Part shown: positions 556-55,600 of the stretch, piece after piece | How positions within the stretch are numbered: the stretch's first letter is position 1 | How the letters are laid out: the number at the start of each line of letters is the position of its first letter | Origin: Polychytrium aggregatum | Taxonomy: Eukaryota; Chytridiomycota; Chytridiomycetes; Polychytriales | Direction of reading: 5' to 3' | Length of the DNA stretch: 64,000 nt | Assembly: GCF_025602895.1 (NCBI RefSeq) | Contig: NW_026516355.1 | Location: forward strand, 30,711 to 94,710 | Program-made: the position numbers and the translations under genes | Notes under the pieces: generated by a model | What the model was told of the DNA's origin: nothing | The model's database searches: none | Seen by the model: the letters and a program-made list of their open reading frames with translations, nothing else

Positions 556-3500
556 ATGTCCAACCTCGGCGGCAGCGGCAGCGGCTACCACCCTATCAAC
601 AAGCAGGGCGCTCCTGCCTTCCCTGATCCTGCCAACTATGGCTCCCAGCAGCAGCAGCAGCAGCAGCAGCAGCCCGCTCAGCAGTCCGCCTATCCCGGGC
701 CCCAGAGCTACGGCGGCCGCCCTGCTTCATCCTTGATCAACACCCCCTCCACAGGCTCGAAATACTACCAGCCGCCTCCGGGTCCGGCCATCCCCATCCC
801 GTCGTCGACTGGCGCCTCCAGTGCCGCCTTCCCAGCTCCCGCCCCGGCGCCTGCTGCGGGACAGGCCCAGCCTTACTACTCGCCCCCCGCCCAGCCCTCA
901 GCGGGCTCCTTCGCCCCGGCCAGCAAGTACGCTCCCCCTTCGCAGCCAACCCCCAACTCGTACTTTGTTCCCATCGCAAGTACTCCCTCACAGCAGTCGT
1001 ATGCAGCTGCCCCGCCCGGCCAGCTCTTTGCCCGCAAGGCGACTCGCAAGGAAGTTCCGCTGCAGCAAAACGGCACCTTCGTCGTCGAGGTGCCTCTGCC
1101 CACGAGCCACATCGAAAACTGCACTTACAAGACCGAGGAGTTCACCAAGATCAGGTGAGCCCGCGCTGCGTTGCCAGCATTCAGCTTTGCCGATTCAACG
1201 GTGGCAACCACACGATCCACAAAGCCAAACTGCCAGACAGAGTTCCCGCGATCCACTGTTCTGCCGGAGGATTGGTATCCCACCCTGCGCTTCGTAACAC
1301 TTGCTGCGCTCCTTCCCTCTGACAGATACACCGCTGCCACCACCGACCCCAACGCCTTTGCTGACAAGTATACGCTGATGCCGCGAATCCTCCGCCGCAA
1401 CGTCAAGATGGCTATCGTGGCTACGATGTATGTGCCTTTCCGGACTGCACTCCTGCCTCCCTAGCGCCGCCGCCATCTGTTGTTCTCGGGCTGCACGGAG
1501 CTCAGATGCTTCCTGTATGTCGGCCACCTGTCCTGACCTTGTCCTTGGTTGCACCGGCGCCGCTCCTACAGGTACAACGAAGACGACGAGCTTTTCTGCA
1601 AGTCCGTCTTTGCTGTCTTCCAGAACATTGCCTACCTCTGCAGCAACGAGTGCCCCGGTGGCCTCGGTCCTGATGGCTGGAAGGACATTGTCCTCTGCAT
1701 CGTCTCGGACGGCCGCACCAAGATCAACAAGCGCGTCCTCACCGTTCTCGGTTGCATGGGTCTTTACCTGGAGGGTCTGACCAAGAGCTCCGTCAACGGC
1801 GAGGAGGTCTCCGCCCACATCTTCGAGTCCATCTGCCAGCGTGCTGTCGACCATAGCCTGGACTTCCACGACGATATGGTCCCAGTCCAGACCATCTTCC
1901 TGCTCAAGGAGAAGAACGCCAAGAAGATCAACTCGCACCGCTGGTTCTTCAACGCTGTGTGCAAGGTCATCGATCCCGAGGTCTGCATTCTCCTGGATAT
2001 CGGCACCAAGCCCACCCGCCAGTCGTTCTTCCACCTCTACCGCGCCTTTGCTGACAACGAGCATATCGGCGGAGCCTGTGGTGAAATCGCCGCCGAGCTC
2101 GGTCCCTGGATGAAGAACCTGCTCAACCCCCTGGTCGCCACCCAGAACTTTGAGTACAAGATGTCCAACATCTTGGACAAGCCGCTCGAGTCCGTCTTTG
2201 GCTACATCTCGGTGCTGCCAGGTGCCTTCTCGGCCTACCGCTTCAAGGCTCTTGAAGGCAAGCCTTTGGAGTGCTACTTCAAGGGCGAGACCATGCACGG
2301 CGGTGCCGATATTTTCTCAGCCAACATGTACCTTGCCGAAGATCGTATTCTGTGCTTCGAGCTGGTCACCAAGAAAAACGAGCGATGGCTGCTCAAGTAC
2401 GTCAAGTCAGCCAAGGCCGAGACCGACGTCCCGGATCAGCTTCCAGAACTGATCTCGCAGCGCCGTCGCTGGCTCAACGGCTCCTTCTTTGCTGCCGTCC
2501 ACGCCCTCCAGCACTTTTACCACATCGGCAACTCAGGCCACAGCCAGGGTCGCAAGATGGCGCTGTACGTCCAGGCATTCTACAACGCCATCAACCTGCT
2601 GTTTTCTTGGTTCTCCCTCGGCACCTTCTACCTGTCTTTCTACTTTGTCTTTGACGTCGCCAAGGGTAGCTCCGATGACACTGGCGCCGAGCCCTCGAAC
2701 CTGCAGGGTATTGATCTGTACTACCCTTACGGCAACGTCGTTTTCTCGGTCGTCAACGCCGTTTACGTCGGCGTCATCTCCATGATCTTCATCTCGGCCC
2801 TCGGCAACCGTCCCCAAGGCAGCAAGTGGCTGTACTGGTCCTGTGTCCTGATCTTCACCGTCATCATGATCATGATGCTCGTCAACGGTGGCTGGAGTAT
2901 CGCCCTTGCCATCCGTGATATGAACAGCTCCATGGTTGATGCCATCAAGTCTGGCAACTCGTTCAGCTCGTTCAACTACTTCTTCACCAACAAGACCTTC
3001 CGCGACATGGTCACTTCGCTCGTTGCCACTTACGGCCTCTACTTTGCGTCGTCCGTCATCCACCTGGACCCCTGGCACTGCGTCACCTCGATGGTTCAAT
3101 ATCTGCTGCTGCTCCCCATGTACATCAACATCTTTATGATCTATGCATGTAAGTTCTTGTGCCTCGTCTGTACCTTGATGAGCAGACTTTGCGACATCTG
3201 TGGCGTGTCTGGTGTATCTGGTGTATCTGGTGTATCTGGTGTTGTCTCTCATCCGCCTTGCTCTCTCACGTCCAGTCACCAACCTGCACGACGTCTCGTG
3301 GGGTACCAAGGGTGACAACACTGTCAGCTCCGCCGGCGATGCTGTCCAAGCCACCAAGGGCGCCGACGGCAAGCAGGTGGCCACCGTCGATATTCCTGAC
3401 GAGAAAGAAGATGTCAACGAGCAGTTCCGCCACTTCCAGCAGCAGCTCGAGCGCCAGAAGAACAAGGAGGAGGAGGCCCCCAAGAAGCAGGATGCCAAGA

Positions 3501-4199: not shown

Positions 4200-6678
4200 T
4201 CACTCACTCATCCACAGCCATGAGATGACGGACGCCCAGCACATGCTGCCGACCACCCACCACACGATCGTTGTCGCATCGACTGTTCTCGCGGTTCGTG
4301 CCGGCGCTGCCTTCGACGTCGCCACGAGCTGAAAGACCTGGCCAGATTGATAGGCGCTCACGGCCGCGGAAATCAGCTCCCCGTTGATGTTGCTGGACGA
4401 GTTATAGTAGTCCTCGGACAGCTCCCAAGCAAAGATACCCCCGAGCTTCCAGTAGCGCGCAAACTGTGCCTTGGCAGTGACAGACTGCACATCGTCGTAG
4501 TTGATGAACACCTTGGAGGTTGGGTTGATGAGGGTCGGGACCTGTGGATGCCGGGATGAGAGAATGTGCCGACAGCCGGATGATCCGGCAGAGAACCCGA
4601 CGAATACTCAACAGATAGCCCTCTCCCTCTCCCAGCACAGAGGTCGCTGCATACCCCACAACTCACCATGACCGAGTTGTGGAAGGTGCGGATCCAACCC
4701 GAGTTGGGCACCGTCTGCGTCGGGGTCTGGAGCACCCCCATAGACCGCAGCCCGCGCCAGCTCCAGTCGCCCGAGTATCCCGGTGGGTTGCAGCCGTCGA
4801 AGGCGGCGTTGTCGAGCATGTCGCCCTTGATTGTAGTGCATGCGCCCGAGGCCGGATCGGATGCATTGGTCAAGGGACATGTCTGAAAGACGCCATCAGG
4901 ATGCGCGGCATCGATGTTGATCGGATAGAACGAGTGCCCGTTGAACTCTAGACCAAGTCGGAGCTGACTTGGGTTGATCCCAAGCACGTTGACGTAGTTG
5001 TTGAGAGTGTCGTTGATCGATATGATCTTGAGGGGGTCGTTTGCAGAGGGAAACAGGGGCGTGTTGTAGCCCGTGTGCGAGTTCCAGTTGCCAGAGTAAT
5101 CGTAGGTCATCACTGCATTATTGAAACCATGGATCACAGAATGAAAGCGTCGGTGAGAATGAAGGGAGCGAAGCAGCAGCAGCACAGAAGTAGTGATCAT
5201 GTCCTTTGTTCAGCAAGCGATCCTCGAGACCCTCCCATGGCACGCATGCCATCACTGGGCATGGAGCACAGGTCGCAGCGGCGTTTTGATCGACACTATA
5301 CCGTAGCCTGAACAAGAGACACCTACCGTTGATGTACGAGAGGTAGCGAGCCCAGATCGGCAGCCAGTTGGTCCCGTTGACATCTGAGTATACCTTGATG
5401 GTCGCTCCGGCTGCGATCGAGATGGTTCGGTTTCCAAGCCGGTCGCGAAGCAGTTTGAGCGTTGTGTTGAAGTTTTGAAAGTCGTGGATGCTCTTGCTAT
5501 TGCATCCGTTGCCCGAGGCGTCTGGATACCTGCAGAGCACATTTCATAGCACAAGAGTTTTTGGGCTTCTGGATGAGTACAACGAATGGGCTCGAACTGG
5601 CCATGGCACAATGAGCAGCGGCTGGTATCGGTTTCTCCTGACTGCAGGCGTGCGACGATAGAAACCAAGCACAGCAGCGAGCAGAGGTCGTCCGTTTGCC
5701 GTTCATGACCAGGGCAAGTACACACGACTTACTCCCAGTCTTGAAAATGTGAAAGAGGACAGAGAGAGGGAGGGCGGAAGGTCGTCAGCAAGAGCGATCA
5801 CAGCTGCGTCCTCGGTGCGCTGGTGCCATTCGAAAACCAGCTCTCCGTCAGCGTTGCCGTACCAATATCGATTCCATCAAATGCATACGAGCTGTTGATG
5901 AGAGTCGACACCACCGAGCTGACAAAGTTCTGCCGCCCGGCATCCGTCGAGAAAGCTTGGCTGAATTGAGTGGAGTTGGTCCACCCTGCGGTACGAGTTA
6001 TGTGAGTACAATGTGCTGCCACTGCTACTGTTGCTGATCGTCGTGCCTGTGACCACATCCGATACACTCCGCCATTGCGATGCGGTGTTACCTCCGATGG
6101 ATGCACTGAGCAACCAGAGTCCCGGATGCGTCGTCGTTGGTTTGGTTCCGCCGAGCAAGTAATTTTTGGATTGATAGAATGAGATGAGCAGGCCGTCGGA
6201 GCTACTTTCAGCTGACCGGTCTCTCTCTGGTTCCATGTGGAGCTTTCGCGACAGCAGTCGCTATACAGGAAGCACGGCGCTGCTCATTCCTTTGCGCCAG
6301 CGGATTACTCGCTCGCTCACATTGTGGTGAATCCATAAACACTCTTGAGCTGATTGAGCTTGGGGATGTTGATGTCATCGTTGGCCTTGAGTGTGGGAAT
6401 GACGCTGCCGTTGGCGCTGACAGTGAAGAAGGCTGGTATGCCAGGCAGGCTCCCTCAGTCAATCTGCCTCGGGCTCAACCCGACTAGGATTTGGCGCAAG
6501 GGGGAGAGGAGCCATATTTACCATAGAGTATTTGGCTGATGTTATTGTAGTTGAGGGTGCTAATGTCAATGTTGTTTTGGTTCGCCCAGTTCGGAACGTA
6601 TGCTGCTATGTCGGCCGACACCAGGCTTGCCCAAAGGACCTGCACGACCAGCAGCGCTATCAGCGGAACGCTCTTCAT
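4200..6678 (-). CDS. Secreted GH18 chitinase with hydrophobic C-terminus; two microexons
   Basis: Hydrolyses chitin outside the cell. It starts with a signal peptide (MKSVPLIALLVVQVLWASLVSA). Eight exons fit in phase (467 aa): 6678-6522, 6432-6321, 6105-6092, 5985-5863, 5739-5733, 5529-5327, 5112-4667, 4541-4200. The 14-nt exon supplies IASIGG of the conserved SIGGW motif. The 7-nt exon (ACTGGGA) supplies DW and part of the catalytic Glu of FDGIDIDWEYP. Without these two exons the active site is not encoded. Further family motifs are VMTYDYSG after exon 7 starts and GIFAWELSEDY near the end. The tail, after a Ser/Ala/Arg stretch, is a hydrophobic segment (IVWWVVGSMCWASVISWLW), which suggests a GPI-anchoring signal or a membrane anchor. 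The enzyme class is certain; the anchor and the exact microexon borders are inferred. Confidence 0.9.
5733..5739 (-). other. 7-nt microexon of the chitinase (catalytic DWE)
   Basis: The minus strand reads TTTTCAAG, then ACTGGGA, then GTAAGT. Joined to GGAATCGATATTG upstream and GTATCCAGAC downstream it gives GIDIDWEYPD, the DxxDxDxE catalytic motif. No neighbouring frame supplies these residues. Confidence 0.85.
6092..6105 (-). other. 14-nt microexon of the chitinase
   Basis: It is bounded by TTGCTCAG upstream and GTAACA downstream on the minus strand. Phase 2 in and phase 1 out recreate TTIASIGGWTNS across the two joins, which is the substrate-binding beta-strand motif of GH18. Confidence 0.8.
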
Positions 6679-6968
6679 TGTGCCAAGAGAGGGAGGGAGA
6701 AGGAGAAATGAAATTGATTTGGAGGAGAAAGAGCCGGGTCCGGGTTGGCTTTCCTCGCCAGATGTCGGGAGTAGGCGTTTTTATGGAAGCCAACTGGTTT
6801 CTGAGCATCGGATGTGGTACCATTTGGCCATTCTTTCCATCAACAACGGGCTGACGGAGGATCATTGTCAAGCGTCGGGGAACATATGGTGTGATCCGGT
6901 TCGTTTTCAGCATGGCAAACCGACACATCGCACGCGGTGCATCCGGTATTTTACAGGCGATCCAATAT

Positions 6969-7245
6969 AAAACGGGACACCCGGGATTTTGACCATTCAT
7001 CGAATATTTTGTTACCCAATGTTATCGCGCGCTGGCCATGACCATTCGCCAGACGGTGTGGAATCGCGACGTCAACGCGGCGCGCAACATGATCACAGTA
7101 TGCAGGTCGATTGTGGAGATCGGAGAGCGACCGGCGGTCTTCACTCGGAGGCTGCCAAAGTGATCTGATCTATTTATTGTGGCTTTGCTTGACGCATGCC
7201 ATCACATACTACATGTTCATGGAAACGGCTGTGGTGTCCCGTTTT
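6969..7245 (+). mobile_element. Decayed Fanzor/TnpB-type transposon remnant with 13-bp inverted termini
   Basis: AAAACGGGACACC at 6969-6981 is the exact reverse complement of GGTGTCCCGTTTT at 7233-7245, so the 277-bp stretch has terminal inverted repeats. Inside it, an open frame 6993-7163 ends with QTVWNRDVNAARNM followed by an Arg/Pro-rich tail (ERPAVFTRRLPK) and a TGA at 7161. W/DRDxNAAxN is the last RuvC motif of TnpB and its eukaryotic Fanzor relatives. The earlier RuvC motifs and the zinc ribbon are missing, so this is an internally deleted, non-autonomous copy. A second copy of its right end lies at 15386-15520. No clear target-site duplication was found. Confidence 0.7.
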
Positions 7246-7464
7246 TTTCTGAATATAGTGTAGAACCTTGTACTCAAGTGCTGTCGCTGGGTGGGCTTGT
7301 GTCCCCCCACAAGCGAACCCGGTAGATACGAAAGCCATCCCGAAACATGAAACGGAATACCATACTTTTCTACTATATTAGGGGGGAAGGGTGAGTGGGT
7401 AGAAATATGCACACCCGTCATCTACAAGTACTATCCACATCCTGGAGGCATGGGTCATCGGGAA
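7246..7464. other. Intergenic sequence
   Basis: This lies between the transposon remnant and the stop codon of the FIGNL1-type gene. No gene or repeat is recognised. Confidence 0.4.
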
Positions 7465-10400
7465 CTACTTTCGATTGACGCTTCCGTACTCGCCATCGAA
7501 TTTGATGTACAAATCGAGGTCCTTGTCGGAGACGGAGGCGCGGACCTGGGTCAGGGCTTCGACAAAATCGCAATACATGATCGGCCGAACATCGCTTGCG
7601 TTGATATTGCGGATGTCTTTGATGTCTCGGATGGGCCCTAGTATCAGCGGAAGAGACTCGTGTCAGCTCACCCACTGTCGATAAATGCATTTGGCTCGCA
7701 AACATGGGCTCGCTGTGCATCCAGTCACGTACCGAGGGCCGCCTCACGAACCAAGCCGTCCATGTCCGATCCACTATAGCCTAAGCACGACAAAAGCGTC
7801 GGGAGAATCACGCTGGTTAGCTTCATGCATGTCCGTGCGTATCTGGAATTGCCTATGGCCCGGCGTGATGCACCAAGTGCTCCGTCCGGGCGGGCTATCC
7901 GTACCATCGGTTTTGGTGACGATCGTGCAAATCTCTTCCTCCGAGAGCTGGTGTGTTTGCTTCTTGAGTAGATTCTCGACGATACATCGTCTGGCATCTG
8001 CCTCTGGGAGCGGGATGTACCTGATGTCGTCATAGCGAAGCGCACGTTCGGTTAGAGGTGTCCGGCGGCAATCTACCGCGACTCGGATGTGACTTTTGTC
8101 CCGTTGGAGCTTACAGCTTCTTTCGAAAGCGTCTTCGTGCCGCTTCGTCGATCTCCTGGGGCCGATTCGTTGCTCCTGGATTCAACAGATGCTGTCTTAT
8201 GAGTCTCCAAAGCTATCAGCACTGCTTGATGACGGATATCGGCCATGGGAATGCACAGATTGAATCGAGCGCAAGCTGCCCACCGATCATAAGGATGCGG
8301 TCCTCGGCACTTGTACCGCATCCATCGAATTGAATCTGGGTCGCAGGAGTGGATGCGGTCGTAGTCAGCATCGTGCCAACAGTCGGGGACACACCCTTGG
8401 CCGCCCTGGCCAATGGCAGCGGGTCGCGACTCACCAGAAACTCCGTCTTGATCCTTCGTGTGGCCTCGACCTCGCCATCCGTGCGTTGGGTCAAAAGCGA
8501 GTCGATTTCGTCAACGAAGATCACGCTCGGCTGGTGAACCCGGGCCACCGCAAACAGCGCCCGGACCATCTTTTCGCCTTCGCCAATCTGATCCGCAATG
8601 AAAGCAGTCGATCATGGCACGTTAGCAGATCCGCCAGTCTCACTCCGAACGGCTGTGCACAAAGCAAGCGGTCGTAGACATACCCATTTTGATGTGAGGG
8701 ACGATGAGCTGATGCTGAAGAATGTTGCCCCAGACTGGCTCGCGATGCACTTCCCTATCAGAGTTTTGCCTGTGGTGCGCAGGGCGGTTAGAACCCCAGC
8801 TGAAGCAACCCCCCGGCTCGTGTAGGTTGGCTTGATGGAGACATACCCGTTCCTGCGTTGCATAGAGAGAGCAAGGATCAGTTAAACATAGAGTCTTGAT
8901 GATCCCTAATGCCATCGTCTACTTACCTGGTGGTCCAAACAGGAGCAATCCTTGATGTGAACACAAGAAGAAGCAAGTCAGAAACGATGCTTGTCCCAGC
9001 CACGACCAAGTGAATGCTTGATTTCACCCGACAAGTCTCCGGCGGCCTACCCTTCGGTGGCCCGCGCAGTCCCGTGAAGATATCTGGACGCAGCATGGGC
9101 CAAACAACGATTTCTTTGATGGTGTTCTTGGCGTGCTCAAGGCCGGCAATGTCGTCCCTAGGGAAACACCACAGACAAACGGCGTCAATCGAAGATATGC
9201 AAATGCCCGATCCAGTCGCAACAACATCCAGGCCATCAATGGCACGCACAACATCGACAGCGAGTGCAGCACCAGCACCAGCACCAGCACCAGCACCAGC
9301 ACCAGCACCAGCACCAGCACCAGCACCAGCACCAGCACCAGCACCAGCACCAGCACCAGCACCAGCACCAGCACCAGCACCAGCACCAACTTACCAGTCT
9401 ATGCCGGGAGTTTGGTCCATGATCTCGTTCATGATCATCTCGATCATACGCGGCTCAATGTTCCTGAGACGCTCATCGATGAGCTCCTCCTCCTGGTCTA
9501 CCAGTGCCGAGCCAGGACCAGATCCGGATCCAGATCCGGATCGAGACACAGGTCCGGGCCGGACGGCCATCGGCTTTGCGTTCCTTTGTTGTCCGCGCAT
9601 GGTCCTGCGTTGCGGCGTGGTGTCCATACATGTATGATATTAGCTCATTTCATGATCTCGGCTCAGAAGCAAGCGCAGCTGTGCTCTCCCGACTGGGGGT
9701 GTCATACCCGTACGAGTCCTCCTCATCCCGCTGGTCTTTGCTCGACATCAGGGGCGGGACAAACTTGCCGATGCCTCGCTTCATGGTGGTGCCGAGGCTC
9801 CGCTTCTTGTTGGCTGTGATGCTATTGGCGGCCTGGGCTGCCCCTGACCGGCCGTTCTTTTTCTGGCTGTCCTGGACCAGTTTCTGATAGCCACTTACGA
9901 AGCCATTTCCTGAGGCGCCCGCACCTTCGTCGTCCGAAGCGGGTTCCGCTTGACGCTGAGCAGCGATACAGAGTGGTTAGGGCCATAGCTGGATGGCTGC
10001 GGCGGAGCGCACTTGCACTGCTGCCCTTCCATTTGCAGGTCCTGGGCATATTGGTCAACCAAGAGCCTACCTTGCGATTCCGCCCAAAGGTGCTTTCTCT
10101 TATATCCGACGGCTCTGTTTCCACGGCCATTCTCCGAGGCGGCACGGAGCCCATCTGGTTCGGATACGACCTTTCGACCCTGGAGCCCTCTCGCTGGCTG
10201 TAGGGCTTGTGGGAATACGCCCCCGGCGGGGGAGAGGTGAGTCGGTCAGGTATCCTCTGGGGCTGCTGGGGTCCGCGCGATTGGTGGTGACTGAGGAGCG
10301 ATTGCCGGAAAGTGCGTACGGCCGAGAGGATAATATCAGAAACGGAACATGGGAGTAAGCGGATGGTGGCAGTGAACCGACATGGGAGCTGCCGGATATA

Positions 10401-11441: not shown

Positions 11442-12223
11442 TTCAGCCGGATGGACTGCACTGATGCCACTCGGCGAGTCGCTATGAAGCCTGGTAGGCG
11501 AAACAATGCTGGTCTGGTGGTCCAGCGGATCGGTGCGGCGGAACGGCGCTTGGGCCCGGCGAGATCGGGACAGAGCGAGATGCGAAGCTCATGGTCGCGG
11601 GTCGCGCGGCCATTCAAGCGACTCGCCTCAGCACCCACCCGACAAGACGGTTTTGCGGCTGTCTTTGAATGAGAATGCGCATCCGTTGTCTGCAGCGATC
11701 ATACGTCCCGCGAAAGCAGGACAGGCAGTATGCACCATTCCTAGTCGACTGAAGCCCCAGCGCTGTCCCGAGCCGTTCCGCCACCAACAGAGGAATGAAC
11801 ATTTCCACCAAAGCAAACTCGACAACAGCGATGTGACAATTGACTGAATCAGCATCCAACCCGACCCATTGACAAACACCGTTCACTGATGGCAGCTCTC
11901 TTGTGCAAATGTGATATATGGGCGTCCCGTTTACTTTGAAAGCATTGTTACAAATAGGGCATGACTCATAGAAGCAGATAGTAGACCAAAACGGTGATAT
12001 GTGCAAGCAGACAGAGAGGGGGACGGAGCGCAGAGAGCAGAACAGACAGGCTCGAACAGACAGAATATGGGCGAATCGACAAAAACAGAGAGTTGGGTCC
12101 TTGTGGACTGGCGACCAAGCAATGATAGACAGGACAGTGAAGTGAGCCAGTGAGACAGCAGAACCAGGGGATAGATGAGGGATTATGATGATTTGGCTCG
12201 TCGGTAGCTTCCCGTCGGAACCA
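11442..12223. other. Intergenic region upstream of the FIGNL1-type gene
   Basis: Open frames exist on the minus strand, but none shows a family motif or consistent splice structure. The part from 11442 probably contains the FIGNL1 promoter and 5' UTR; the rest is the 3' side of the arrestin-like gene. Confidence 0.4.
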
Positions 12224-13507: not shown

Positions 13508-15385
13508 TGGGCGAGGTAGATGTGGAGCTCTGCGGTGGCTAGATGGAGGGATGATTGCGAAGACGCTGATGCTGCTGAGAATGGAGCTGTGTGGCGACTG
13601 AAGCAGGTACTTGGACGATGCGGGCTATGGTGAGAAACGAACGGGGTCGGCGGCGACTGCTTGGGCATTTATAGCGGCTGCTCGATACGAGGTGGCTGCA
13701 GCACACCCGCAATGCAAGATTGGTAATAGACCGAGCAAGCAACCGACAAGCCCGCGACGTCACCGACCCACGACGGACTCTGCGATTGCGTCGGCATGGA
13801 GCCTCGGCTGCAAACCCGACGAGACAGGGAGCGGCTGCGGTATCGCTGCATGCTTGCCGAGCAAGGTGGATTCTGCGCACGACACGTCGGTCGGGCAATG
13901 CACATCCAAGTGCGGCCACGAGCCCGGCTGTCCCATTGCCCCATCCTATCGGTGCGCATGAAAACTTTGGCCTCACCGTTTTGGCCCCCCCCCCCAGCCC
14001 GGCGCGATGATTTCCAATCCTGGAGGGGTGTGTGGGTTTGGGGAGGGGGAGAGGGTGTTGGCGGTGGTCGTCCAAGGACCATCCAAGGGTCATCCGACGG
14101 CGATCCGATAGCGATCCGATGGCGATCGGGCCTGCATCCGATGGCCCTGTGGTCCCAGCGGGCCGGCCCCGGCATGCGCATCTCGATATCGCGTCCATCG
14201 ACACTGACACTGACATCGATATCGATACATTGACATCGATATCGTGTGCATCGACACCGGCATTGATGTTCAGAGCGACACCGTAGGCCTGGGCGCACAG
14301 TTCCCACGCCTGCGCTGGTGCCGCTGTCACCTCCGTGCGCGCAGCCCTGGCTCGGCCCCTTATCGCAGCGGCCTGGCGCAGCGCTCTTTGTCGCTGGCCA
14401 GCCTAAATTTTGCGCCAGGCCCCTTTGGCCACGCCCCCATGGGCCCTTTGGCGAGCAGGGCCTTGCCAGCGGACAAGTGCCGGACCTCTGATATACCTGT
14501 CCATGCGTTGTTCCTGTGCTGGGCAGCGTGCCGCTTCATGGTCCCTCCAAGAGTCGCTGCCCTTCTGCAGTCTTCTGCAGTCTTCTCTCTGCCCGGCGGT
14601 GCCATGGGTCCGGCGCTGGCTCGGCCAGGGGTTTGGCCAGCGGCCTCCAGAGAACCAGGCCGGCTGTCCTCGGCATGGCTGCCGATGCGCTGTCTCCGGC
14701 CATCGTTCCGTTTGCATCTCTTCTGCCTTTGCCTGCGTATATGGTTCATTGGCACATGAGCAGCACCAACCCGTCCACCCCCCAGCCCGATATCCTTCCT
14801 TCCTTCCTTCCCTCCCCGGCTCGGTGCTGCCGGCCAGCGCGGATGCGTGTCCTTCGGGTCCGTCTGGTGGTGCTGTCCACTGGCTCTCGGTTCCGCCACC
14901 ATGGATGACAAATGCTCCCTCGGCCAGTGCGGCCGATGGGGGAGGGGAAGGGAATGGCTTTCCGGCGTTTGCCTGATGTGCTGCAGATTGCTGGGCAACT
15001 GGGAGAGGAGTCTCGGGCCAGAGCAATCTGCATCTTCCATCTCCCCGACACCTTTCCCCCGTCTCGGTCTCGCGATTTCCCCAGCTGCGCGGCGTATCGG
15101 CCTCTGGCGGCCCGATCTGCGCCGTGACGCAGCGGCCGCTCCCCGATGGGGTTCGGAGGTTGTCGGGTGCGCGACGCGCGAGCACTTCCAGAAGACCAGG
15201 ACATGTGTTCCTGCACCAGTGGAGGCGGCAATCGAGCGGGCCTCATGGGCACCGCACAGGCCGTTGCGCTGTTGCTCACCTTCCCCCGATGTCGCGGTTA
15301 TCTCTGGGGGGGGGGTATCTCTCTCGCTTTCTGCGGCGGACCATCCCCATTCATCGCTGGCTCTCCGAGATCAGTGCGCATGCCA
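13508..15385. other. Gene-poor intergenic region
   Basis: About 1.9 kb without a gene I can support. It holds a run of ten C at 13987, repeated CGATCCGAT-like words at 14090-14135, two copies of TGACATCGATATCG at 14211-14244, and long spurious GC-rich open frames on both strands. Confidence 0.45.
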
Positions 15386-15520
15386 ATTGTGGAGACCGGA
15401 GAGCGACCGATGGTCTTCACTCGGAGGCTGCCAAAGTGATCGGTTTATTTCTTATAGCTTAGCGTGACGCAAGCTCATCACATACTACATGTTCATGGAA
15501 GCGGGTGTGTTGTCCCGTTT
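15386..15520 (+). mobile_element. Second copy of the Fanzor-like element right end (5'-truncated)
   Basis: From 15386 the sequence matches 7110-7245 with scattered substitutions. It covers the last codons (IVETGERPMVFTRRLPK, TGA at 15437), a 3' non-coding part with a 25-base block identical in both copies (CATCACATACTACATGTTCATGGAA), and a terminal TGTCCCGTTT. The WNRDVNAARN codons and the left inverted repeat are absent, so only the right end survives. Confidence 0.75.
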
Positions 15521-15654
15521 GCGCATGTGTAAAGTGTACTATAATTCATGTATTGATTGCGTCTGGCCAAGGCATCCGGTCACATGCCTGTCATATTGTT
15601 GTGATAACGTTAGCGTTCGTCCGTTAGCAATTGGTCCGCTTGGTCTGCGTGCCT

Positions 15655-27879: not shown

Positions 27880-29830
27880 TTACATGGGGTTGTAATGACA
27901 AGCAATAACGGCGCAGGATGAGCTGGTGGCGAGGGCACAGCCAACGGACTGCGAGCTGGACCACATGAGCTGTTGACGGCCGCGTTGCGTATGCAGTGTA
28001 TCGAAGCAGGGCAGGGATGGAGTGGGGATGGTCAGCGCGAGGTGCATGCAGCAGATATCAGATAAAGCGCACACATACGGTTGACTCTCGGCCTCATCGG
28101 AGCGTATTCAAAGGGTTTGCTCGGTTAGACGGAGCATTGCAGGACAAACAAACCTGAGTGTAATGGTTGTAGAGATGCAGGCCTTCGCTCCACCACGCGC
28201 CAACAGCATCGTTGATGGACTGGCCGCCGCCCCAGGTGATGTACAGATTTTCACCGGTGCTGGTATGCTGCAGCTGACAGGTATCGGCGTTCACCTGGGC
28301 AGCGCCTTGGGCACTTGCTGCCAGTCCGTCGTCCCAGGAGAGCGGCGGGACACTGAACTGGGCGCGGTAGTAGTTGTGGATCGAGACGGCAGAGCCGGGA
28401 TCGATCGAATTGCTCTGCGGCGGCGGTGGCGGCGGCGGAGGAGGAGGGGGCGGAGGAGGAGGGGGTGAAGCGTTGGTGGTGGTGGGAGCCGGGGCAGGGG
28501 CATCGGTTGTGGCTTGAGCGACGGCCGAAGTGGTTGTGGTGGTCTTGGTGGTGCTGGTTGAGGAGCGGGTCGACGAGGCAGTCGAGGACGTGGAGTTTTG
28601 CTGGCTGGCGATGATGTTGCGGATGGTTTGGGTGACGGGCTGGTTCGAAACACAGACAGTCGAGCCGACCTTGAGCGACGAGCAGTCAAAGGTCTGGTTG
28701 GTCTGGAGGCTGTTGAGCTGCGTCAGGGAGATGTTGGCGGCCGACGCAATCGATGGGCAGGTGTCCTTGGGCCCCACAATGACACCAACGGTGCATCCAT
28801 TGATGCCGCTCAGTCCAGTGATGGTGAAGGTCGGGATAGGCAGGGTACTTGAGGCAGAGGTGACGTTGGCCCGAGGCTGGCGCGAACTGCAGATCGTACT
28901 GGAAGGCAACAGGCCGAAGCAGTTCAGGAAAGGGTTCATGTCCAGCAGGTTGGCAAAGGTCGCGTTGATCTTGGTCATGATGCTGGCGCAGGTGTCGCCC
29001 TTGGCGATCTGGTAGTACGAGATGCAGTTGATCGAGTCGGCGCGGGTGGTGACGATGTCAGAGGTCTTGAGCTGGAGCGAAGGGTCTCTCTTGACACAGA
29101 TACCGGTGCCGGCAGGGAGGTTGGCGCAGGAAATGGTGTTGTTGATCTGGGTGTTGATGCTGGTGAGGGTGGCAACATCCATTCCGTACGAACCGGCGAT
29201 CGACAGGCAGGTGTCGTTGGCTCCGGTCACGAGGGCATTCAAGCACCCGGCCAGGGTGATGTTCATGCCTGGGGTCAGGGTGATGACACCGCCGCCCTGT
29301 CCGGGGGCCATGAGCGAACGGCTGGTGATGAGCGAGGGGATGCAGACGGGCTGGCCGACGACAGGCTGGTCGCAGTTGATAAAGTTGGCGTTCTGGAGGT
29401 CCTTGACGTCAATGTTGTTGCGGTTGGCGATGGTGAAGCACGAGTCGCCATCGCCGACAATGTCCTTGGTGACGCAGGTGCCGTTGTATACAACCGCTCC
29501 AAGAGGCTGGGACTCGACGCAGACGGGGTAGTTGACGGCCTTGATGGCGGTGCAGTCGAGGGTCGGGTTCTTGGCCTTGAGGTCGTAGACGGTCAGGCCC
29601 TCCTCCTCGGCGATCGACCAGCAGCTATCGGAGGCGTTGACGGGGCGGGTGCGGGTGCATCCTTGGTCCTGATAGACCATCACTCTGGCCAAGGCCTGCG
29701 GGGAGCCGCCCTGGATGATCATATGGCGGCCGGTGACGGCCAGACAGAAGCCTGGGCCGCTGGGCGAAACGAGTCCGCCCCATGGTCCGACGAGAACAGC
29801 TGTGGCGATGGTGAGCCAGAACTGTTTCAT
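27880..29830 (-). CDS. Secreted protein with five LysM modules and a CAP domain
   Basis: Exon 1 is 29830-28154 (559 codons) and exon 2 starts at 27969. A TAA directly after CHYNPM at 27880 could end the protein (about 588 aa), but GTAAGT there is also a possible donor. After a signal peptide come five LysM-like modules with the xDxCxxIA core: NASDSCWSIAEEEG, DGDSCFTIANRN, GANDTCLSIAGSYG, KGDTCASIMTKI and PKDTCPSIASAA, each closed by a late Cys. LysM binds chitin or related glycans. A Ser/Thr-rich linker and 16 consecutive Pro lead to a CAP (SCP/PR-1) domain with the expected His/Glu tetrad (CQLQH, TGENL, WWSE, NHYTQ) and VIACHYNP. CAP proteins often bind sterols or lipids. Extracellular, chitin-associated action is inferred. 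Confidence 0.88.
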
Positions 29831-30697
29831 GGCGGAAGGGGGGGGGTTGCAAAGCAGGTGCGAGTCTGGTGAGCGCTGCCTGGGAGGACGAGAAGGGCGA
29901 TATCGAGGTTCCTTTCCTTTTCCTTGCGGCCAAAGAGCCGACCGAAGACGAAGAGACGGCGGCTGGGCAGGGACGGCGGGCTTGCGGGAGGCTAAATACG
30001 GCCGTGTGTCGCTGTGACGTGCGCGGCCGTGGCGTGTCTGCGCTGCGTGTGTTGTCTGTGGAGGTGCTGTGCTGCAGTCGCGTGTCGCCGCGGGCGCGCT
30101 GCTTTGCCGCAGTGCTGCGTTGCTGCTGCTCCACAGTCTGTGTCGCCAGCCAAGCACGTTCGACCCATGCCGCGCCGCGCACCCTGGCGCTGTCGCGTCT
30201 GTCCCACCCAGACCCGCGACGCGGCCCACCGACCAGACGCAACGCCACCGCCGCCGCGTTTTCGGCCTGTGCCTCTGTTTGGCGAGCGCGCGACGCGCTC
30301 CAACTGCTTTTGGCACCGCGCGCCTCTGGTGCAACCAGGTCCCGGACCAATCCTCGCGCCGCCGGCCCATGTGCCACAGCCGCCGCTGCTGCGCGCGCCA
30401 CACCCAGCGGACCAATCACCGGTCTCTGGATCGATCCGAGTCCATCCACTTTCGTGGCTGCCCACAGCCGGACCTGGCCACATGCACGCCAGCCGCATGC
30501 TGGCTGCGCGCCCTTGGCCGCCGTTCGGACGTCGCGTCGCGCTGATGTCCTCCCCTCCCCATCAGGCCAGATCGGTCCGTCGACCCCGTCCTGCTGCCCG
30601 TCGCGCGGCGCTGCCGATCAGCCTGCATCTGTGTCTGTCCCAGAGCCCCGCGGTACTCGATCCGGCTGCTTCTTCAGCCGAGCCACGACGCCGCGCC
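29831..30697. promoter_or_regulatory. Divergent promoter region
   Basis: The 867 bases separate the start codons of the LysM-CAP gene (-) and the coiled-coil gene (+), so both promoters must lie here or overlap. No repeat or clear TATA motif stands out. Open frames on both strands are GC-bias artefacts. Confidence 0.4.
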
Positions 30698-52651: not shown

Positions 52652-55600
52652 GGATACGAAAGGTAGTCCCCATCCCTGTCGCGATTGTTTGTCGATTCAC
52701 TTCCCGGTGCGTGGCTGGGCCTACAGACACTGGCTCAGCATCGGTTTCCGGCCTTGAGAGCAAGGCGCTGACGTCTACTGACGGTCTTGTTTTCCGGTTT
52801 ATGGCTGCAACGTCCGTTTCTTGGCCCAGATTCTGTCGGCGAGCGCCAGGATCGCACGGACGACGGCGACGAGCCTCGTCAAGGGCCTCAGCATTGCAAG
52901 GATCGCTCTGACAAGCCCTCGCTGCGGGCCCAGACACCGTATATATCAAACTCTGTGTCGGCGCTTGCCGAAGGATCTGTCGCCCACCACCACCACCACC
53001 ACAAGCACATATCATCGTTCTCTGTCGACGCGATCGACTGTGTGTCCTTTGGCGGCCAGCGACAGTCGCCCACGAACCCTGCCCTGAGCAGCGACGACCA
53101 AGCTGGCTCAACGCCCCTGCTTGCGGGTGCCCAGAAGAAGCGGCGTCCCAAAAAGCAAATCAGCCCTTCATTGACCATCAGCACGATCTTTTGCAAGTAC
53201 GACATTGTGCGGAACTGTGCGCTCAAGTTTGGGTTCCGAATCGTCGATGACACACCCGAGGCGGACCGCTGGAGCGTCTGCTGGATCGACACCGGCGTCT
53301 CGGTCGAGCGGGTTCTGAGCATGTAAGCCTGGAGAGAGCAAAAGTTGGAGGGGAAGTGCACGATCCAGCGTCGAGTCGAGCGTGCTGCTGTGGGAACCGA
53401 AGCCGGAACCAGAACCGGACCCAGACCCAGGGCCGCTGTGAGTACTCGGAGTGTGAATGGAACCCAAACGGAATCTGAACCTCAACGGCACTGTCTCGCC
53501 AGGGAGCCATACCAAAAGATCAATCACTTTCCCGGCATGCACGAGATCTGTCGAAAGGACCACCTGGCCCGCAATCTCAATCGCATGTCGAGGATCTTTC
53601 CGAAAAAGTACAACTTTTTCCCAAAGACATTCATCCTGCCGCTCGAGTGGGCCGATTTCAAGCTGGCTCACAAGGCCCGTCGCCGAAAGGGTGTCTGGAT
53701 CGCCAAGCCCGACCACGGCTGCCAGGGCAAGGGGATCTTCCTGTTCAACAGCCCCAAGGAGATCTCCAGCGTCATGGGCAGCCAGCACGTTGTTCAAGGA
53801 CACAACAACATCATCGTGCAGGCCTATCTCAACCGACCCTATCTTATGGACGGCTTCAAGTTTGACTTGCGGGTCTATGCCCTCGTCACCTCGGCCGATC
53901 CGCTGCGGGTGTTCATGTTCAAGGATGGCCTGGCCAGGTTTGCGACCGAAAAGTACGTCCCGCCACGACAGGACAACCTGGCCGATGTCTGCATGCATCT
54001 CACCAACTACGCCATCAACAAACACTCGGACAAGTTCCAGAGGACCGAGGACCGGGACAAGGGCAGCAAACGCAGCGCCCGGGCTGTTCTGGAGCGGATC
54101 GCCCAGAGCCGAGGCGTCCCCGTCGATCTGCTCTGGAAACGCATCGGCGACGTTGTCATCAAGACCATCCTGACGGTCCAGCCGCAGCTGAGCCGATCTC
54201 TCCGTGCCTGCTTTCCGAAAAAGACCAGGGACAGTTTCCAGGCGAGCGCCTCGGATATGGGAAGCCAGTGCTTTGAGATCCTTGGGTTCGATATCCTGCT
54301 GGATCGGCAGCTCAAGGCCTGGCTGCTTGAGGTGAACCACTCGCCCAGCTTCACCTGCGACAGCCCCCTGGATGCCGAGATCAAGGAGGGCGTCATCCTT
54401 GGGGCCTTCAAGCTACTGAATCTTAATGCAGAGGTCGAGCGCAAGTTCCACCGGGAGCAGAAGGAGCGGCAAAAGGAGCGGCTGCTGGGGGCCACCGTAT
54501 CGGCTGTCCCGGGAGAGAAGACTCGGTCTGCCGGTCTGCAAGGGTCAGCGACAGCGGTATCAGCGGGTTTGACCGAAAGCCAGGCGGCCATGTCGCTGGA
54601 GGAGCTGGCAAGGACCAAGCCATCGGTGGCAGAAGAGGACACAGAGACTGGTCTCGTCGATACCCCAGAAGGCACACGTAAGTGACTCTGCTGTCTGGAG
54701 GGTTTCGCACAAACAACAAAGCAGTGATGTCGACAGAGCGCATCGTTCGCCTGTCGTGGTTCAAAAGTGACGACCATCGATTGCCACTGACGAGCTCAAT
54801 GATTGTGTTGCTCGTGCAGAAACGAGGGTATCCTCCCCCGGATCCCGCTCCTCTTCTCCCAGCAGCGCATCCGGATCGATACGCTCCCATTCCGACAGCA
54901 GCACTCTTTCGGATGCCGCCAAGGAGCTCCTCGAGTCGTATTACCGGATGTACCCGTCGCATTTGCTGGATCGGCTAAGCGACTACGAAGACCAGAACCT
55001 GGGCGACTACTGGCGCATCTTTCCACCGACCGATGTGACCAAACTGACCCAGTATCTCCAGTGCGTTGCCGAGGCCGCCAACCTGTTTGCCGAGACCAAC
55101 TCGACAAAGGTGCGCCGAGAGTATCTCCTCAAGAAGCGCGAGAAGGAGGAGGAAATCAATCGCAAGCACCAGGAGTGGAAGGCCCGGCAGATGCAGCAGA
55201 GTCTCAACGTGAGCGCCCAAGAGCAGCGTAGGTCAAACCTGTATCGATCAAAGTCGCTGAGCAACATCACGAATCGCAAACTCACCGGCATGGACGGCGC
55301 AACCCGGGTCATGTCGCTGCCAAAGCCGTACCGCGAGCTCGGCCACTTCACATCCAAACTGGCTCGGGATGACGACGCCCGAGAGGCATACAGCGACGCG
55401 AGGAGCGAGACCTTCTTGAAGGTCTTTCGGTCCTTACATCTCAACGATGCCATGGTGGCCGAAGACGACGACCCAGGTCCTTCGTCGTATTACCCACCAG
55501 GGCTCAGGCGGCAGCCGTCGGCAAGGAGCGCAAGTACCATAAAGCTTAACATCGAGTCCATCAACGACCGCTTCGGGCTGTCGATCACCAAGCCCGCCGA

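Follow-up and report, generated by a model that had tools for sequence, protein, structure and literature searches.

The 64,000-nt stretch of Polychytrium aggregatum DNA analysed here (the window) very probably carries a non-autonomous, internally deleted DNA transposon of the Fanzor1 family, a MITE-like element whose limits are probably 6954-7260 on the + strand (307 bp). It contains the C-terminal tail of a Fanzor1 gene between inverted repeats, lacks the other recognisable parts of the nuclease, and shares its right end with a second copy in the same window. The element is known in kind, being similar to the Fanzor1 transposon SPu-1 of Spizellomyces punctatus; what is new is this member of the family and a copy at 15372-15538 that consists of the right end only.

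The assignment to Fanzor1 comes from the end of a short frame. The frame at 6993-7163 (+ strand) is open and ends in ...VWNRDVNAARNMITVCRSIVEIGERPAVFTRRLPK, followed by a TGA stop codon at 7161-7163. Its first ATG lies at 7038, from which 41 codons plus the stop (7038-7163) specify the product MTIRQTVWNRDVNAARNMITVCRSIVEIGERPAVFTRRLPK, with a RuvC-III motif (WNRDVNAARN) and a Fanzor1 C-terminal tail (RPAVFTRR). When the 56-residue frame was compared with 177,635 PDB sequences using phmmer, two matches only were obtained at E<=10, both at the C-termini of Fanzor1 proteins: SpuFz1 from Spizellomyces (PDB 8gkh; E 0.011, query residues 15-55 to chain residues 989-1029 of 1032) and PpFz1 from Parasitella (PDB 9cf0; E 1, chain residues 1220-1255 of 1259). 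Both matches stop 3-4 residues short of the chain end. The E-value alone is marginal, because the reversed 56-residue query reaches E 0.074 with one unrelated chain, and a ranking of ORF tails was therefore carried out. The last residues of 931 ORFs of at least 41 aa, taken from stop to stop in six frames, were scored without gaps against the two Fanzor1 tails. The frame ranked first of the 931 against both SpuFz1 (z 9.2) and PpFz1 (z 7.2), the runners-up reaching 2.9 and 3.5, respectively, and 100,000 shuffled versions of the tail all fell short of the real score against SpuFz1 (shuffle maximum 40, real score 79). This ranking is not independent of the phmmer search, since both Fanzor1 tails are the stretches that phmmer had picked.

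Nine residues are common to all three tails (W N R D, N, R P, F, R), and identity amounts to 40% with SpuFz1 and 33% with PpFz1. In the alignment, the Asp of the RD pair falls on residue 1000 of the 1032-residue chain in 8gkh; counted back from the chain end, and assuming that the chain ends with the Fanzor C-terminus, it corresponds to D606, a catalytic residue that binds metal in SpuFz1 (638 residues). The preliminary description had recognised a remnant of a Fanzor/TnpB-like nuclease, which the two C-terminal PDB matches and the first rank among the ORF tails bear out and narrow to Fanzor1. It had also described an open frame with WNRDVNAARN, which stands, followed by an Arg/Pro-rich tail as an addition to it; this tail is instead part of the homology, as it aligns with the C-terminal RPxxFxR of Fanzor1.

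No other part of the nuclease was recognised in the window. The RuvC-I Asp and the RuvC-II Glu are absent from the frame, which opens at 6993, 22 residues before WNRD, and is too short to hold either motif within the element. A single Cys occurs upstream of WNRD in the frame. A pattern scan of the window returned one NRDVNAARN and, within ~900 bp of it, no CxxC...CxxC pattern of a zinc ribbon. In Pfam, the frame matches one model alone, the TnpB/Cas12f zinc ribbon (PF07282), at its final 13 positions and with an E-value of 0.086 that falls short of the cut-off; NCBIfam gave no match for the frame. A Pfam match to DUF6708 in an overlapping frame (7093-7263) was dismissed as chance, with about half the cut-off score, though its E-value of 0.03 is better than that of PF07282. 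Given the absence of the zinc ribbon, RuvC-I and RuvC-II, the frame therefore represents the very end of a Fanzor1 gene and cannot make a nuclease. Judged by its sequence, the frame ending at 7163 is a Fanzor1 C-terminus: a remnant, not a Fanzor gene.

The tail is enclosed by inverted repeats. The 13-mer AAAACGGGACACC at 6969-6981 has its exact reverse complement at 7233-7245, confirming the perfect 13-bp termini and the 277-bp span of the preliminary description. This is the one perfect 13-mer inverted pair spanning 60-600 bp in the 64-kb window, but first-order randomisation of the window, repeated 40 times, yielded on average 0.8 such pairs and at most 4, so the 13-bp repeat taken by itself lies within what chance produces; the protein tail and the repeated right end exceed it. 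Imperfect occurrences of the 13-mer, with at most three mismatches, are as a whole likewise about as frequent as expected (13 against 12.2); one of them, at 11921-11933, was considered as a further copy and rejected, as no right-end similarity surrounds it.

Several observations place the ends further out. The inverted repeat of the first copy continues outward, with 24 of 33 positions matching. Taken as 28-bp imperfect repeats (left, 6954-6981, + strand; right, 7233-7260, - strand), the two sides match at 20 of 28 positions, while the outer 15 bp alone match at 7 of 15, a level reached by 5.6% of window positions. Past CCCGTTT, the first and second copies remain in register up to AGTGTA; 10 of these 20 outer positions match, and only 0.8% of window positions do as well. 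Immediately outside the 28-bp repeats of the first copy stand the dinucleotides TA at 6952-6953 and TA at 7261-7262, giving an outer symmetry in which TA is followed by CA on the left and TG by TA on the right. A TA also follows the second copy. Putative TA target-site duplications have a precedent in SPu-1 (PMC3627910). From the sequence, we place the element at 6954-7260, flanked by putative TA duplications, as the probable solution. The earlier idea of a short element bounded by inverted repeats is thus retained, but its 13 bp would be the inner part of the repeats, the true ends probably lying 15 bp further out on each side. Between the left repeat and the first ATG, a left-end remnant (6982-7037, + strand) would contain the deletion junction or end just before it; the frame on this side is without a zinc ribbon. 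The 9-bp direct repeat TGACCATTC occurs at 6990-6998 and 7039-7047, once near the left end and once just before the retained codons. These are its sole + strand occurrences in the window, and the pair may mark the deletion junction.

A second copy lies ~8 kb from the first. By blastn, the 277 bp match 15372-15520 on the + strand (86% identity over 150 bp, E 2.2e-44), and a profile built from both copies finds these two alone in the window, the next match having E 3. The second copy (15372-15538, + strand) comprises the right end only: ~22 codons with IVETGERPMVFTRRLPK, a TGA stop codon at 15437-15439, a 97-nt post-stop region and the TA. It has no WNRD, no left half, no left repeat and no RuvC motif, and is the only extra copy in the 64 kb; its 32-residue tail gave no match against the PDB. 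Two blocks, one of 30 nt and one of 25 nt, show no difference between the copies. Over the last 17 codons plus stop they differ by three bases in two codons, both changes altering the protein.

The region behind the stop codon is equally long in the two copies, with 97 nt from the stop to the proposed element end (82 nt, 7164-7245, and 81 nt, 15440-15520, to the end of the inner repeat). In the first copy it spans 7164-7260 (+ strand) and, by its position as in SpuFz1 and its equal length in the second copy, is a predicted omega-RNA scaffold. Position and conservation fit an omega-RNA by analogy, and a retained guide-RNA gene is possible. Folding gives no significant support: 300 of 1000 column-shuffled alignments did as well in RNAalifold as the two copies (235 of 1000 with the shorter form), two hairpins singled out post hoc were matched by 45 of 1000 shuffles each, and single-sequence z-scores range from -1.37 to 0.01. 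Rfam at gathering thresholds gave no match in the window, and a tRNA search none either. As candidate guides, four 15-nt stretches were taken (7246-7260, 7261-7275, 15522-15536 and 15537-15551, the third starting one base past the inner repeat); allowing at most two mismatches, each matches only itself in the window.

The element sits among genes with recognisable domains. On one side is the end of a gene on the - strand with Vps4_C similarity (7468-7662, E 1.1e-6), accompanied by a weak AAA lid match (7728-8051, - strand; E 0.0026, below the cut-off), and on the other are two GH18 chitinase-like pieces, also on the - strand (4376-5209, E 1.5e-8; 5801-6283, E 9.7e-7, just below the cut-off). 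The GH18 pieces (4376-6283) probably belong as exons to a single gene, oriented with its 5' side towards the element, and the element may lie in the upstream region of this gene. Elsewhere the window carries genes for a chitin synthase (1537-3312, +), a LysM + CAP domain protein (28097-30415, -) and a member of the tubulin-tyrosine-ligase family (53327-54682, +). The chitin synthase and the tubulin-tyrosine-ligase member agree with a fungal genome, the latter perhaps with that of a flagellated fungus. Searches beyond the window were made in collections where little was expected. In viral contigs, a protein-pattern scan returned 15 stretches and an alignment scan three, none of which was confirmed, and the identical 25-nt block was not found; nor did this exact block reveal a relative in bacterial and archaeal genome contigs. 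The 20 phage records retrieved by tblastn (best E 2) were rejected as chance.

The history that best accounts for these features starts from a parent that was presumably SPu-1-like, ~2 kb long, with inverted repeats, one Fanzor1 gene and an omega-RNA region reaching to the right end. A deletion would have removed most of the gene, including RuvC-I, RuvC-II and the zinc ribbon. What survives is roughly the final 40 codons, RuvC-III Asp included, with their stop codon, as well as the right-end region and the inverted repeat on either side. Any movement after the deletion would have depended on a transposase acting in trans on the repeats. The right end, if still transcribed, could provide the guide RNA for an intact Fanzor encoded elsewhere, a role that scaffolds of ghost SPu-1 copies fill in a published cell assay. 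Against this reading stand a duplication of 2 bp only, with moderate statistics, and a second copy that is without a left repeat and whose tail alone has no PDB match.

The deleted Fanzor1 transposon has to be weighed against simpler and more elaborate accounts. An unrelated short ORF might carry a TnpB-like motif by accident inside a chance inverted repeat; the frame is indeed short, about 0.8 inverted repeats are expected per window and the phmmer E-value is only 0.011. Yet the ORF-tail ranking, the collinearity with two Fanzor1 proteins up to their C-termini and the repetition of the right end make this extremely unlikely. A narrower question concerns the second copy, which could have arisen by an insertion of its own, 5'-truncated and with an 8-bp duplication on its flanks. 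The direct repeat TGCGCATG, at 15375-15382 and 15520-15527, is placed near both of its ends, and 5'-truncated Fanzor1 copies with duplications of 7-19 bp are known from Helitron-type elements of Chlamydomonas (PMC3627910). However, the likeness to the first copy crosses both repeats, with 9 of 14 positions matching at the left one and AGTGTA shared at the right one, and a shared 8-mer occurs in such pairs of stretches at 160 of 12,756 window positions, a chance level of 1.3%; we regard a separate insertion as very unlikely.

The remaining alternatives accept a Fanzor1 origin and differ in what the copies now do. They are fairly likely to be dead relics, two decayed and partly deleted copies with neither function nor mobility at present. 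The left end missing from the second copy speaks for this, as do the three coding differences, which alter the protein in both affected codons, and the poor match of the outer parts of the inverted repeats; the inner 13 bp, still identical in both repeats of the first copy, point the other way. A bolder proposal is a free-standing guide-RNA gene, in which the right-end module of tail codons and post-stop region has been kept as an omega-RNA that serves, in trans, an intact Fanzor encoded elsewhere, in the manner of the ghost SPu-1 loci. The same module with the same 97-nt post-stop length recurs in both copies, the 30-nt and 25-nt blocks are unchanged, and in a published assay ghost omega-RNAs were functional scaffolds. 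The shared module, ~150-167 nt with ~22 codons of overlap, is moreover near the size of the GtFz1 omega-RNA (150 nt, 17-aa overlap with the gene). Nevertheless, the two-sequence fold is no better than that of column shuffles, the single-sequence z-scores are unremarkable, Rfam is without a match in the window, and two neutral relics of one family would have the same appearance. We therefore hold a free-standing guide-RNA gene to be unlikely. Less likely still is its extension to the whole family, in which the elements would have shed the nuclease, the right-end modules would be mobile guide-RNA genes and the leftover codons would persist for their part in the RNA scaffold rather than for any protein. 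On this view, an intact Fanzor elsewhere would receive a new guide with every insertion, the guide coming from the flank in which the copy has landed.

Read as a deleted Fanzor1 transposon, the element adds one more genome to those with a Fanzor1 family and small derivatives, and here, too, right ends outlast the gene, as published for S. punctatus. Full-length relatives, if present in the genome, would be candidate RNA-guided nucleases with a tail 40% identical to that of SpuFz1. Ghost copies also bear on the question of what role Fanzor plays for the transposon.

The closest published system is SPu-1 of S. punctatus, an element of ~2.1 kb whose repeats measure 33 bp and whose TA duplications are putative (PMC3627910). 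Saito et al. (PMC10432273) counted 42 loci that retain the Fanzor gene in full or in part and 134 ghost loci that lack it. The SpuFz1 RNA of 88-90 nt consists of a 75-nt scaffold and a 14-15-nt guide; it is encoded behind the gene, in a stretch that crosses the right end, and its scaffold lies within the 80-nt post-stop region (PMC10432273); scaffolds from ghost SPu-1 copies are functional with SpuFz1 in human cells (Saito et al., PMC10432273). The element described here shares with SPu-1 and SpuFz1 the Fanzor1 tail with the same catalytic Asp and the RPxxFxR end, repeats of similar size (28 bp, compared with 30-33 bp published) with TA on both sides, a similar distance from the stop to the right end (82-97 nt, compared with 80 nt), and the occurrence of partial or ghost copies stripped of most or all of the gene. 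It differs in its length (307 bp, whereas SPu-1 measures ~2,100 bp when full and ~550 nt as a ghost), in keeping ~40 gene codons whose tail is 40% identical to SpuFz1, in an omega-RNA that is here a prediction, and in a left flank of TTTA (6950-6953), where SPu-1 has the target-adjacent motif CATA. The Fanzor1 of Parasitella parasitica (PDB 9cf0) has the same C-terminal WNRD...N...RPxxFxR, but the match is weaker (E 1, 33% tail identity) and the protein there is full-length. MITEs, finally, are characterised by many similar short copies across a genome, and the 64 kb here hold two. With them the element has in common that it is short, internally deleted, bounded by inverted repeats and without a transposase, whereas it differs from them in carrying a recognisable piece of a nuclease gene.
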